Below are positions 7,457 to 52,593 of a stretch of 64,000 bases of DNA, in pieces (within the stretch, counting starts at the first letter, position 1; every line of letters begins with the position of its first letter). The position numbers were made by a program, and so were the translations under genes. Origin of the DNA: Gemmatimonadota bacterium (GTDB taxonomy: Bacteria > Gemmatimonadota > Gemmatimonadetes > Longimicrobiales > Gaopeijiaceae); NCBI GenBank assembly GCA_007121555.1, contig SKKH01000044.1, positions 1 through 64,000 of the forward strand. Direction: 5' to 3'. Under the pieces are notes generated by a model, which ran no database searches, had not been told where the DNA came from, and saw only the letters and a list, made by a program, of their open reading frames with translations.

Positions 7457-8880
7457 CAGGCCTCCTCTCCGCTGGAGTCGTCGCCCGAGCCGTCCCCGAC
7501 CGGAGCGAAGGCCGCCTCGAACCGGGGCACCAGCGCTTCCAGTCTCATGCCCCGGGATCCCTTCAGAAGAACCAGCTCCCGGCCCTCGAGCCGGGGACGC
7601 AGTTGGGCCCACACGCTCGCCGTGTCCGGAGCCAGGAGAACTCGATGGTCGTCCTCCAGGTCGAGTTCACGGGCCGCCTCGGAGAAGGCCCCCACCACCA
7701 CGATCAGCTCCAGCGGGCCCTCCAGTGCCTCTTCGAGCACCTCCCTGTGAAGCGAGGGGCTCTGGGCTCCCAGCTCCAGCATGCTTCCCAGGACCGCCAT
7801 CCTGGGACCATCCCAGTTCACCGAAGCCAGGGTCTCGAGGGCCGCTCGAACCGACGGGGGATTCGCGTTGTAGCAGTCCAGGATGAGAGCGAGCCGACCC
7901 AGCCGAAGCCACTCCCCCCGGAGCCGCCCGGGCCTCTGGGCCTCCACTTCGGGAATCGCGGAGTCCAGCGAAACCCCAAGGTGGGTCGAGACCGCCAGGG
8001 CCAGGAGGGTGTTCCGGGCTCCATGTAGGCCGGGCAGCCCTGGCTCGATGGACCGACCCTGGAAGCGGAAGGAGATCCGGCCCGTGCGGTCGGGGCTACC
8101 CAGCTCACCTCGGAGCGAGTCGTCTGCACCCTCGGTGAAGCCGGCCACCTCTACATCCTCTCGGATCTCCCTGGCTCGACGAGGCAGGACCGGGGGGACA
8201 TCGGCGACGATGGCCGGCACGCCGGGACGAAGGTGGGTCAGTAGTGAAAGCTTCTCCTCGATCACCCCATCCAGGCTGCCAAGGCCTTCCAGATGGCTCT
8301 CTCCCACGTTCACCACGAGCCCCAGGTCGGGTTCGGCGATCCGGGCCAGGGTGGCGATCTCCCCGGGTTCGTTGGTTCCCAGCTCCACGATCACGGCCTC
8401 GGCGTCGTCCGGTGCAGCCAGGAGGGTGAGGGGAACGCCGATGCGATTGTTCAGGTTCGCGGAGGTGGCATGGACCCGAAGTGTCGACCCCAATGCGGCC
8501 CGGAGGAGCTCCTTCACCGTCGTCTTCCCCGAGGATCCGGTGAGGGCGACCACGGGGGCACTCAGGGCGCGTCGACGGAATCGGCCGAGCTGCCCGAGCG
8601 CGACCAGAGTATCCGGAACCGGATAGAGGGGGAGGACCTCGAGATCGGCTGTGCCCTCCCGGACCACGGCCCCTGCAGCGCCCTGGCGGGCGGCCTCGGC
8701 CAGGAATTTGTGGCCGTCGAAGGTCGGGCCCTCCAGGGCCACGAAGAGGGCACCAGGATCCAGCGTACGGGTGTCGGTGGACACACCCGTGAAGGAGAGC
8801 TCACGGGGCTCGACGACGTCTTCCAGGCCCAGGGCCCGAAGCACGCCGGCGTCGGTCCAGCGGAAGGGGGTCGACGTCAT
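7456..8880 (-). CDS. murF: UDP-N-acetylmuramoyl-tripeptide--D-alanyl-D-alanine ligase
   Basis: VVALTGSSGKTTVKELLRAAL, NLNNRIGVPLTLL, DCYNANPPSVRAALE. Confidence 0.94.
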   Translation of the reverse strand: MTSTPFRWTDAGVLRALGLEDVVEPRELSFTGVSTDTRTLDPGALFVALEGPTFDGHKFLAEAARQGAAGAVVREGTADLEVLPLYPVPDTLVALGQLGRFRRRALSAPVVALTGSSGKTTVKELLRAALGSTLRVHATSANLNNRIGVPLTLLAAPDDAEAVIVELGTNEPGEIATLARIAEPDLGLVVNVGESHLEGLGSLDGVIEEKLSLLTHLRPGVPAIVADVPPVLPRRAREIREDVEVAGFTEGADDSLRGELGSPDRTGRISFRFQGRSIEPGLPGLHGARNTLLALAVSTHLGVSLDSAIPEVEAQRPGRLRGEWLRLGRLALILDCYNANPPSVRAALETLASVNWDGPRMAVLGSMLELGAQSPSLHREVLEEALEGPLELIVVVGAFSEAARELDLEDDHRVLLAPDTASVWAQLRPRLEGRELVLLKGSRGMRLEALVPRFEAAFAPVGDGSGDDSSGEEA

Positions 8881-46690: not shown

Positions 46691-47761
46691 CTATCTAGCC
46701 CGCTCGGTGGGGTCAACCGATTCGTCGTCCTCCCGCCGCTTCGGTGGGCCCTCTTCGCGGAATCCTCCGATGGGCGGAGTCCTCGGCGGCTCCCACCAGG
46801 CCGGAAGCTCGGGCCCCTCCGAGGCCCGGAGGCGGGCCATCCGCTCCCGATCGCGTCGCCGTCGAATGCGGAACAGGACGAGAAGGGCGACCCCGAGGGC
46901 GAGCCAGAACAGGGTGGATTGGGCCAGAATCAGAATGAAGCCGTACCGACCCTTCACGTACTCCAGCCACTGGCGTTCAAAGGTTCCGGTGGTGACACCG
47001 AACGTGCGACGGAAGGAGTCCTCGAAGTCCCGGGACTCCCGCCAACGTTCCAGAAACACCTCCATCCCCCGGGTCCCGGATTCGCGGACCAGGTATTCCA
47101 CTGCGGTGGCAGAGAGAAGGTAGGCGATCTCCGCTGACGCCCTGTCGCTGGGCCAGACCAGACTCAGGGAGTCCAGCGGCGGCGCTCGCCCCCCGGCCAG
47201 GATGAGTCGAAGCCTCCAGGCCTCCTGCACGTTCCATCCCCCGGAGGACCACTGGGCGTATCCCTCGTCGAACCAGCGAGGGATTCGAAGTCCCGACAGG
47301 TAGTCATGCAGACCCAGATGAGCCCATTCATGTCGCACCGTCCGAGATTCGGACTGGAACCCGTCCCAGGGAGTCTGAAAGACCGGTAGGACGATCCGAT
47401 GATATCGGGGAATGGCCACCCCGGCTCCCCAGTGGGGAGCTCGTCCCCCTGTGAGGGCGACCCATCGAGCCTCGTCCGGTGCCAGAAATAGGACTGCCCT
47501 TCGAGGATATTCCGGAGGAATCCCGGGGAGCACGGGCCGGGACTCGACGGTCCGGATCACTCGCTCGGCTCGCCCCCTGTGCTCAGGCCAGAAGACGACC
47601 TGAAGGCGCTCCCCGAGTTCGGGCCGGTCCGACGTCAGCACCAGTGCGCTCTGGATCTCCGGGACCTCCGGAGGGCGTAGGAGGGAGTCCGAAGTGGCCT
47701 GGGACTCCTGAACGGCCACAGAAGAGGCCATGGCCAGGAGGAGGAGGGCGTGAGCAAACAT
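46691..47761 (-). CDS. Peptidase-MA-like zinc metallopeptidase with C-terminal TM
   Basis: TVRHEWAHLGLHDYLSG (HExxH), RWFDEGYAQW; C-terminal LILAQSTLFWLALGVALLVLFRIRRRR. Confidence 0.8.
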   Translation of the reverse strand: MFAHALLLLAMASSVAVQESQATSDSLLRPPEVPEIQSALVLTSDRPELGERLQVVFWPEHRGRAERVIRTVESRPVLPGIPPEYPRRAVLFLAPDEARWVALTGGRAPHWGAGVAIPRYHRIVLPVFQTPWDGFQSESRTVRHEWAHLGLHDYLSGLRIPRWFDEGYAQWSSGGWNVQEAWRLRLILAGGRAPPLDSLSLVWPSDRASAEIAYLLSATAVEYLVRESGTRGMEVFLERWRESRDFEDSFRRTFGVTTGTFERQWLEYVKGRYGFILILAQSTLFWLALGVALLVLFRIRRRRDRERMARLRASEGPELPAWWEPPRTPPIGGFREEGPPKRREDDESVDPTERAR

Positions 47762-49544: not shown

Positions 49545-51527
49545 TCAGAACCCCTCAACGATCCGATCCTCGACCGAAGGCCAATCCCAGATCACTCGCT
49601 CTCGGGACGGGGACCAACCACCGTCAGGGGACCTCGAGTCTGACGCCGGGCGTCGTGCAGAGGTCTGACGCGGCTCGCCTCCGTCCTGGTCGGGCTCATC
49701 TTCTCCTCCGATCCGACCCACCCCGGCCAGCTCTCGGAGGACTGCCAGATCGTCGTCGCCATCGGAGTCCTCCAGGGGCGGAGCAGTCATCGGGCCGGCC
49801 GGAGCTACCCTGGCCCCGTCGGGCAGGGTTGGAGTGGCGGGAGACGCATCCCCGGATCGGGACGCTGAATCCGAGACCTTGACGGCCGAGCGCATACCTG
49901 CCGTGGACACGTCTTCTTCGGGTCTGGAGGGGACACCGATCCCATCTCCCTCGGGTCGGCTCCAGTCCGGCAACCGCCCCTCCCCCAGATCCAGAACCAG
50001 CCCCCCCTCGAATCGAGATCGGAGGCGGTCGTCCACCGCTCGAATCGCGCTGGGGGCCCGGTCGCTGGCAAGGAAGATCCTGGAGTTCCGCCGGCGGAGG
50101 GCTTCGAAGAGATGGAAGAACTCGTCCTGGGCCCGCTCCAGGTTGGCCAGTTGTTCGAGGTCGTGGAGCAGGAGCACCTCCACGGACCACCATCGCTCCC
50201 GCCAGGCCCCGGCCACCCCGTCGGAGATGGCTCGAATGAACTCCTCTGCAAAGGCGGATACCGAGATCAGACCGACCCGAGCGTCTGGATTTCTCGCCAG
50301 ATGGGTTCGCCCCACGGCCTCCAGCAGTCCCAATGCGAACGCGCTGTCCGTGGCATGAAGATAGAGAGGATTGTAGTCGGGACGGTCCGCCCGGAGCAGG
50401 CGATCGGCGGCTCGGAGAGCCAGCGCGGGGACGGTTCCCTCCAGATCTTCAAGGGTCGGGCCCTCTCCAAGGTGGGTGAACGGCCGATTCCGCTCCCTGG
50501 CGGAAGCCAGAAGCGCCTCGGATTCCTCCAGCCGGTCAGGGTCCTTCAGGAGCGTTGCCGCGGCCTCGGGCCAGGGGTTTCCCAGGAGGTCGAGTTGCTC
50601 GCGGATCTCCCGCATACGCTCCGTGTCCAGCCGAAAGCGTCGCAGTACCTGTTGCCAATCCCGGGGCTCTCCACCCGACTCGAGAAGACGATCGAGCCGC
50701 CGGGTGACGAAGCCGGCACCCTCCGCCTCGGCTCGTGCCGCCTGAACCCCCCGACGCCATTCAGGTTGCGTGCCGGAACGAGGGTCGGAGGCGGTTCGGA
50801 CTCCGCCTCCGGAGCCCACCGTGCCCACGACCGAAGGGAGCTCTTCAACGGACACGGGTCGTCCCTCCAGCTCCTGAAGCACGAGCACCCGGTTCAGAGC
50901 TCCCTGGAGTTCCCGCACATTCCGAAAGGGCGTTCGGGCGAGAGCCTCAGCGACCCCAGGCTCAAGCATACCTCCTCGCGCCTCGGTCTTCCGGTGAAGG
51001 ATGGCCACCCGGGTTTCCAGGTCCGGCGTCCCGATGTCGACGATGAGACCGCCGGAGAATCTGGACAGCAGGCGGGAATCCAGGCCGTCGATCTCGGAAG
51101 GAGGTCGATCGGAGGCCAGGACGACCTGCCCCCCGCGGGCGGTGATCCGGTCCAGGGTTCGAAGTAGCATCTCCTGAGCCTGGCTCTGGCCGGTCAGGAA
51201 TTGCACATCGTCCAGAAGGAGGATGTCCAGCGCCTCATACCTGGAATGGAGGTCCTGATCCTCTCCTCGTTCCAGGGCCTGCGTCAGCTCTCCGAGGTGG
51301 ACCTCGAGGGGCTGATAAAGGACGTTGCGTTCCGGGTGGTTCTTCTGGGATCGGTGCGCGATGGCTGACAGGATATGCGACTTTCCCAGGCCCGAATCCG
51401 AGTAGAGGAAGAGGGGATTGTAATTTACCCCCGGGGAGTCAGCTGCGCGCCGAGCCGCGGCGGCGGCCAGCCGGTTGGCGGGCCCCACCACGAACGTCTC
51501 GAAGGTGAGTCGGGGATCCAATTCCAT
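49545..51527 (-). CDS. DnaA-like protein with two AAA+ modules, second lacking Walker A; no DnaA domain IV seen
   Basis: Module 1: LTFETFVVGPANRLAAAAARRAADSPGVNYNPLFLYSDSGLGKSHILSAI, LDILLLDDVQFLTGQ, DSRLLSRFSGGLIVDI. Module 2: PDYNPLYLHATDSAFALGLLEAV, VEVLLLHDLEQLANLE, DDRLRSRFEGGLVLDLG. Confidence 0.82.
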   Translation of the reverse strand: MELDPRLTFETFVVGPANRLAAAAARRAADSPGVNYNPLFLYSDSGLGKSHILSAIAHRSQKNHPERNVLYQPLEVHLGELTQALERGEDQDLHSRYEALDILLLDDVQFLTGQSQAQEMLLRTLDRITARGGQVVLASDRPPSEIDGLDSRLLSRFSGGLIVDIGTPDLETRVAILHRKTEARGGMLEPGVAEALARTPFRNVRELQGALNRVLVLQELEGRPVSVEELPSVVGTVGSGGGVRTASDPRSGTQPEWRRGVQAARAEAEGAGFVTRRLDRLLESGGEPRDWQQVLRRFRLDTERMREIREQLDLLGNPWPEAAATLLKDPDRLEESEALLASARERNRPFTHLGEGPTLEDLEGTVPALALRAADRLLRADRPDYNPLYLHATDSAFALGLLEAVGRTHLARNPDARVGLISVSAFAEEFIRAISDGVAGAWRERWWSVEVLLLHDLEQLANLERAQDEFFHLFEALRRRNSRIFLASDRAPSAIRAVDDRLRSRFEGGLVLDLGEGRLPDWSRPEGDGIGVPSRPEEDVSTAGMRSAVKVSDSASRSGDASPATPTLPDGARVAPAGPMTAPPLEDSDGDDDLAVLRELAGVGRIGGEDEPDQDGGEPRQTSARRPASDSRSPDGGWSPSRERVIWDWPSVEDRIVEGF

Positions 51528-51612: not shown

Positions 51613-52593
51613 TCACGACTCCGACTCCCATCCGGCCTCGGCTCGTGCCCACTCGGCCACCTGGGCCAGGTCCGGCGGAAGAGGCGACTCGAACCGGACG
51701 ACCTCACCGGTCCCGGGATGCCGGAAGGCCAGACGGTGTGCATGGAGGAACTGACGCGGTGTGCGTCGAGCCAAGGACTGGGCGAAGGGTCGGATCGATC
51801 CGCTCATTCCAGCCCCCCAACCCGCACCGTAGAGCTCATCGCCGACGATGGGATGGCCGAGGTGGGCGAGGTGGACCCGGATCTGATGCGTCCGCCCCGT
51901 CTCCAGGCCCACCTCGAGGAGTTCGGCCGCCGGCCACGACTCCAGGACCCTCAGGTGGGTCACGGCACGTCGCCCCCCCTCGGCGACCACAGCCATTCGG
52001 CGGCGATTCGCGGGATCCCTGCCCAGCGGAGCGTCCACCTTGCGGGGACTGCGGTCCAGATGTCCCCAGGACGCCGCAAGATAGAGCCTCCGAATTCTCC
52101 TGGCCCGGAGAAGATCGGAGAGGGCTCGATGGGTTTCATCATCCTTCGCCACCACGAGGAGCCCAGAGGTGTCCTGATCCAGCCGGTGAACGATCCCCGG
52201 ACGCATGACGCCCCCGATCCCGGACAGATCCGTCACATGATGGAGCAGGGCGTTGACCATCGTACCGGTCCGATTCCCCGGCGCGGGATGCACCACCATC
52301 CCGGGAGCCTTGTCCACCACGAGGAGGTGTTCGTCCTCCCACACGATGGAAAGGGGCAGGTCCTCGGCTTCGGCTCGAGCCGGGGCCGGAGCGGGAATCC
52401 GGATGCGGACTCGATCTCCTGGGGTCAGGGGCTCGGACTTCCGAGGCAGGGTCCCGTTGAGCTGAATGCGCCCCTCGCTCACCAATCGGGCGATACGGCT
52501 CCGGGAGAGTTCGATCTGCCCGGCAAGCCATGCGTCCAGGCGCTCTCCTTCCCCTTCGACCGGGACCACCAGCTCTCGCTCTTCTTCGGTCAC
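51613..52593 (-). CDS. rluD: 23S rRNA pseudouridine synthase, RluD type with S4 domain
   Basis: ERLDAWLAGQIELSRSRIARLVSEG (S4), GIVHRLDQDTSGLLVVAKDDETH catalytic motif, GRTHQIRVHLAHLGHPIVGD. Confidence 0.93.
   Translation of the reverse strand: MTEEERELVVPVEGEGERLDAWLAGQIELSRSRIARLVSEGRIQLNGTLPRKSEPLTPGDRVRIRIPAPAPARAEAEDLPLSIVWEDEHLLVVDKAPGMVVHPAPGNRTGTMVNALLHHVTDLSGIGGVMRPGIVHRLDQDTSGLLVVAKDDETHRALSDLLRARRIRRLYLAASWGHLDRSPRKVDAPLGRDPANRRRMAVVAEGGRRAVTHLRVLESWPAAELLEVGLETGRTHQIRVHLAHLGHPIVGDELYGAGWGAGMSGSIRPFAQSLARRTPRQFLHAHRLAFRHPGTGEVVRFESPLPPDLAQVAEWARAEAGWESES

Follow-up and report, generated by a model that had tools for sequence, protein, structure and literature searches.

What might a bacterium do with a protein assembled from two copies of the AAA+ domain of the replication initiator DnaA and deprived of the domain by which DnaA binds DNA? 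The question is raised by a gene on a contig of a Gemmatimonadota bacterium (SKKH01000044.1, assembly GCA_007121555.1), of which positions 1 to 64,000, here called the window, were analyzed. The reading frame, which we designate X (P0001), is real and lies on the minus strand with its ATG at 51527 and its stop at 49545. The features of X and of its neighbors are collected in Table 1. Families and genera carry anonymous labels (f1, g6 and so on); the window belongs to family f1 and to genome G000.

Table 1. Features of X and its conserved neighbors, in window coordinates; residue numbers are those of X
Feature	Coordinates	Strand	Evidence
X (P0001), tandem DnaA-type AAA+ protein	49545..51527	-	CDS, 660 aa; orthologues in most relatives
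Module 1, residues 3-232, complete DnaA domain III with lid	50832..51521	-	PF00308 E 1.8e-49; AlphaFold2 pLDDT >90; Foldseek to DnaA domain III
Module 1 Walker A SDSGLGKS, residues 43-50	51378..51401	-	GLGK 100% in aligned f1, f4, f5 rows except L
Module 1 Walker B ILLLDD, residues 102-107	51207..51224	-	DD 100% in f1, f2, f4; 96-100% in f5
Module 1 box VII arginine R156 (arginine-finger position)	51060..51062	-	100% in f1
Module 1 sensor 2 arginine R205	50913..50915	-	97% in f1
Helical linker, residues 255-350, conserved	50478..50765	-	Mean top-residue frequency 0.65 in f1; helices pLDDT >89
Module 2, residues 365-516, DnaA-type AAA+ core without lid	49980..50435	-	PF00308 E 4.9e-30; AlphaFold2 pLDDT 96; Foldseek TM 0.88 to DnaA domain III
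Degenerate P-loop of module 2, ATDSAFALG, residues 392-400	50328..50354	-	P-loop pattern in no f1 module 2; positions unconserved
GVAGAWRERWW, residues 437-447, new invariant motif of module 2 initiator-specific region	50187..50219	-	97-100% per position, 29 f1 sequences
Module 2 box VII arginines R501, R505	50013..50027	-	Both 100% in f1
Low-complexity stretch, predicted disordered, residues 525-637	49617..49955	-	pLDDT mostly <50; weakly conserved
Conserved C-terminal tail SPSRERVIWDWPSVEDRIVEGF, residues 638-660	49548..49616	-	W..WP...R..EE motif in all families, single-module forms included
Partner gene, DUF4388 (PATAN) and TPR protein, 543 aa	47815..49446	-	PF14332 E 3.9e-33, TPR families; directly downstream of X in 83/84 loci
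Peptidase-MA-like (PF13485) protein, pepMA, last gene of ancestral cluster	46691..47761	-	Profile match, synteny
RluA-family pseudouridine synthase, conserved upstream neighbor	51613..52593	-	Directly upstream of X in 25/25 f1 loci

Two DnaA-type modules in one chain

A genome search with PF00308 (Bac_DnaA) gave two matches within X, at 51036-51521 (E 1.8e-49) and 49992-50441 (E 4.9e-30), and the AlphaFold2 model of the full-length protein has a pLDDT of at least 90 at 468 of the 660 residues. Homologue searches showed that the two-module architecture recurs among the orthologues of X. In a profile scan neither domain IV (PF08299) nor domain I (PF11638) was found in X, both being found in the genuine DnaA of this genome (L001), and domain IV was also not found in four relatives that were scanned. 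Together with the structure models these matches bear out the first-pass annotation, made from the sequence, which had described two AAA+ modules without the DNA-binding domain IV. It had also placed an intact domain III at the N-terminus; GLGKS, LLLDDVQF, SRFSGG and NVRELQGAL are indeed all present in module 1, which possesses the AAA+ domain III with Walker A and B motifs, sensors and box VII that characterizes DnaA.

The second module reads ATDSAFALG where a P-loop would be expected and VLLLHDLEQ at the Walker B position, the Walker B aspartate being gone. Modelled alone, it gave a mean pLDDT of 96, and its best Foldseek match was domain III of B. subtilis DnaA (TM 0.88, 36% identity). On the strength of these two results we assign it an AAA+ fold, and the possibility that the second half of X is something other than AAA+ is thereby ruled out. 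Chance resemblance of module 2 to DnaA is likewise dismissed by the profile and TM scores. Throughout the f1 clade this module has kept the fold and lost the motifs of the nucleotide site, as befits a pseudo-ATPase. Both the absence of a second Walker A and the pairing of a catalytic module with a pseudo-ATPase module had been proposed at first pass, and both are supported by the sequence motifs and the predicted fold.

The genuine dnaA, which the same annotation had expected elsewhere in the genome, was located intact on contig C62 (G000:C62). It specifies a complete DnaA of 495 aa with domains I, III and IV, and an rnpA-like reading frame adjoins it. X as the only DnaA of this genome, with a frameshifted domain IV, is thus ruled out. 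X nevertheless scores 365.8 against the DnaA equivalog TIGR00362, above the cut-off of 343.9, because the scores of its two modules are added; a single-module relative scores 209.6. The X proteins of the window and of loci L202, L180 and L018 exceed this cut-off only through such summed module scores. In practice, therefore, tandem forms of X may be mislabelled automatically as DnaA or dnaA.

Distribution and duplication of the modules

X was searched for in 37 near relatives and in 200 genomes across the phylum Gemmatimonadota. It is present in many genera of the class to which the window belongs. A different lineage of the phylum, f10, was sampled with six genomes, which at E 1e-70 gave DnaA-level matches only, and no relative of X was found in viral contigs. 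Misses at E 1e-70 in families f4 and f5 might be read as absence of X; this reading was rejected once the loci had been fetched, as most of them held a divergent X, and the occurrence statistics given below were for this reason restricted to f1.

When sequences of both modules, of DnaA and of Hda are placed in one tree, module 1 (support 100/99) and module 2 (99/98) each form a clade, and the two clades are sisters (98/92) standing apart from all DnaA rows. This topology points to a single internal duplication of DnaA domain III before the class diversified, in agreement with the internal duplication that the first-pass annotation had postulated.

The fate of the second module differs among families. 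Its P-loop is intact in nearly all proteins of f2, f4, f5 and f6 and in none of those of f1; its lid is kept in f4, f6 and most f5 proteins and is gone in f1 and f2; and in f3 and f9 the module has been deleted altogether. The stem branch of the f1 module 2 sequences is long (0.91). A tandem with a dead module 2 is ruled out as the ancestral state by the near-constant presence of a second P-loop in f2, f4, f5 and f6. Since the rest of the class mostly keeps two P-loops, we regard the missing second Walker A as a late change of f1 alone. The lost P-loop of the first reading is thus real in the window, and what that reading lacked is that the ancestral form has two intact P-loops.

The shortest natural X, that of genome G087, measures approximately 285 aa and consists of module 1 and the C-terminal WDWP..VED tail; as this form keeps nothing else, we mark these two parts as the core of X. 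Minimal forms composed of one divergent module and a C-terminal W..W tail were noted at L233 (G087, approximately 7548-8162) and L236 (G109, approximately 7522-8313). At L199 (G160) the X frame is shifted beyond the linker and continues into pepMA, which lies downstream, through either decay or an assembly error. The single-module X of f9 (L215-L218) groups with f1 in the module tree despite belonging to a different family of the class, which may reflect transfer or a long-branch effect.

Gene neighborhood and co-occurrence

Loci outside f1 show the arrangement cheA-cheC-TPR-DUF4388-roadblock/TPR-mglB-mglA-X-DUF4388/TPR-cheR-cheD-cheB-cheW-pepMA, frequently preceded by ileS-rluD, and in 59 of 62 of them mglA is the immediate upstream neighbor of X. 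The name DUF4388 denotes the PATAN domain, and we refer to the gene that follows X as the PATAN/TPR gene. The median gap between the two is -1 nt in f4, f5 and f6, a one-base overlap being frequent, which suggests that their translation is coupled. While the linkage to mglA/mglB, PATAN and che genes is conserved, f1 retains only its PATAN part: the locus is there reduced to rluD-X-PATAN/TPR-pepMA, the genes between rluD and X and between PATAN/TPR and pepMA having disappeared. In the genome of the window the only close MglA is a recR-linked copy, and CheA was not found in it. Because the f1 locus no longer contains mgl and che genes, we infer any link to MglA in this family from inheritance.

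The recR-linked second mglA is located beside dnaX-ybaB-recR (L136, G000:C255, 10908-12706), and an mglA next to recR also occurs in f2 and f3 genomes. In G000 no obvious mglB lies between recR and this mglA.

DUF4388 was present in every X-bearing genome tested. Genome G025 (f2; L143, 962-3034) has neither X nor the PATAN/TPR gene between mglA and pepMA; roadblock, mglB and mglA are kept, MglB, MglA and pepMA are contiguous, and the genome is without DUF4388. Three f5 genera (g46, g54 and g68; L228, L229, L230, L232 and L234) have the PATAN/TPR gene but no X, and their DUF4388 protein is shorter. A strict two-way dependence between X and the PATAN/TPR gene is ruled out by these genera, and X is thus not needed everywhere for the PATAN/TPR protein.

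Within f1 all 27 genomes that carry X have a canonical PilT scoring at least 480 bits, as does only 1 of the 26 that lack X (Fisher p approximately 3e-14, a value uncorrected for relatedness, genomes of one genus not being independent, and dependent on a line set after the scores had been seen: the lowest score with X was 489 bits, and the highest without X, G017 excepted, 477 bits). The contrast is repeated inside two f1 genera, g37 (G142 versus G144) and g6 (G162 versus G009, G176 and G187). The exceptions are G017, which has such a PilT without X, and, in f3, G024, which has X without such a PilT. In f1, then, X co-occurs with the type IV pilus genes as represented by PilT.

Proposed function and its significance

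Judging from sequence and gene company, we propose with moderate confidence that X is a DnaA-derived AAA+ ATPase recruited into the MglA/MglB-Che-PATAN signalling by which Gemmatimonadota control cell polarity and their type IV pili. In Myxococcus, MglA-GTP binds the TPR protein SgmX, which localizes PilB (PMC7519303). In Synechocystis, PATAN regulators bind PilB1 and PilC (PMC12288463), and PATAN genes have earlier been noted near mglA (PMC4316618). From these precedents and the gene coupling we infer that X and the PATAN/TPR protein would act on the pilus machine as one complex. ATP bound to module 1 would drive DnaA-like head-to-tail contacts, either between modules or between copies of X; these contacts would switch the PATAN/TPR protein on or off, and the latter would then place or activate the pilus motor, in the way that PilB of Myxococcus is served by MglA-SgmX. 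The f1 module 2 cannot bind ATP through a P-loop. Because its box VII arginines and its new invariant face are kept, it is probably the donor of an arginine finger to the ATP site of a module 1, with the face serving to dock a partner. The delta-prime subunit of the clamp loader, to which we liken it, has a dead P-loop and is an arginine-finger donor. Conservation suggests that the C-terminal W..WP..EE tail probably binds a partner also, perhaps the TPR repeats.

Three other readings have to be weighed. DnaA domain III, of which X is made, is the fold by which Hda interacts with DnaA; X keeps the box VII arginines in both modules, and Foldseek also matches Hda, albeit with weaker scores. X might accordingly be a regulator of the Hda type, its arginine finger stimulating hydrolysis of DnaA-ATP and so linking replication with either the cell cycle or motility. 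Like X, Hda is a DnaA-derived AAA+ protein which has no DNA-binding domain and has kept its arginine fingers. X is, however, a tandem protein, and it scores under the cut-off of the Hda equivalog TIGR03420 (115.3 versus 194.8 bits; 170-178 for its two-P-loop relatives and 281.7 for E. coli Hda). By reading, its N-terminus begins directly at the AAA+ domain (MELDPRLTFETF) and is without a sliding-clamp-binding motif of the QLSLPL type seen in E. coli Hda. Furthermore dnaA is present in nearly all genomes, and X has been gained and lost regardless of it. The first-pass annotation had suggested a role on DnaA or in coordinating replication with division; this is unsupported, since X keeps company with MglA/MglB, Che and PATAN genes and, within its family, tracks its PATAN partner and a canonical PilT rather than dnaA. 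We consider an Hda-like function very improbable.

The ERxQ..FFH stretch, which in DnaA includes residues that contact ssDNA, has been kept in module 2, and X could therefore be a DnaA-type ATPase which still uses this side of the module, either to assemble on nucleic acid or to regulate the transcription of motility genes. This seems unlikely, as domain IV or any other DNA-binding domain was not found in X, the KER stretch has been lost from module 1 (GQSQAQ in the window), and the gene coupling is better explained by an ATPase of a PATAN/TPR complex. Nor do we find it probable that module 2 is merely decaying in f1, leaving only module 1 and the C-terminal tail of consequence. The disappearance of its P-loop, Walker B aspartate and lid, its long stem branch and its outright removal in f3 and f9 would agree with decay. 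Yet the module is nearly as conserved in f1 as module 1 (mean top-residue frequency 0.69 versus 0.75). GVAGAWRERWW, which sits in the helix pair forming the initiator-specific region of DnaA, is together with R501 and R505 conserved at 97-100% in 29 sequences while the P-loop positions vary freely. Such constancy is unexpected under free decay, and we conclude that module 2 is not simply decaying in this family.

Set beside DnaA, X has two modules that sequence and predicted fold alike assign to domain III, and module 1 has all of the nucleotide-site motifs; unlike DnaA, X carries two copies per chain, is without domains I and IV, is not the dnaA of its genome and belongs to an Mgl/Che/PATAN operon, and in the window its module 2 has no P-loop. 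The MglA/MglB-SgmX-FrzS system of Myxococcus xanthus (PMC7519303, PMC11580455) shares with the X cluster a small GTPase, a roadblock GAP, chemosensory proteins, a TPR effector and the link to type IV pili. A DnaA-derived ATPase is not described in those two papers; in the X cluster a single operon couples X with the PATAN/TPR gene. Cyanobacterial PATAN response regulators such as PixG (PMC12288463) share the PATAN domain and its tie to the chemosensory system that controls the motor of type IV pili; the partner of X differs in being a PATAN and TPR protein without a recognized receiver domain, and in being paired with a DnaA-type ATPase. No description of a DnaA-derived ATPase in a polarity or pilus operon was found in the literature searched, most subscription papers being outside its scope, and as far as this literature shows such an arrangement is undescribed. 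To our knowledge the known relatives of DnaA, that is, Hda, DnaC/DnaI and IstB, all act on DNA or on DnaA.

We think it fairly probable that the whole class has made of the DnaA AAA+ engine a tandem ATP switch within the system that controls polarity and type IV pili, and that one family has turned the second engine into a pseudo-ATPase interface; X would then be a DnaA-clade ATPase working outside DNA metabolism. If this is true, the oligomerizing ATP switch of the DnaA type is re-usable in cell polarity, and MglA/Che/PATAN pilus control, known until now for its GTPase, would gain an ATPase. The X family also presents the evolution of a pseudo-enzyme in steps, from two live P-loops through loss of the second lid to loss of the second P-loop with acquisition of a new invariant surface, the module being deleted elsewhere.
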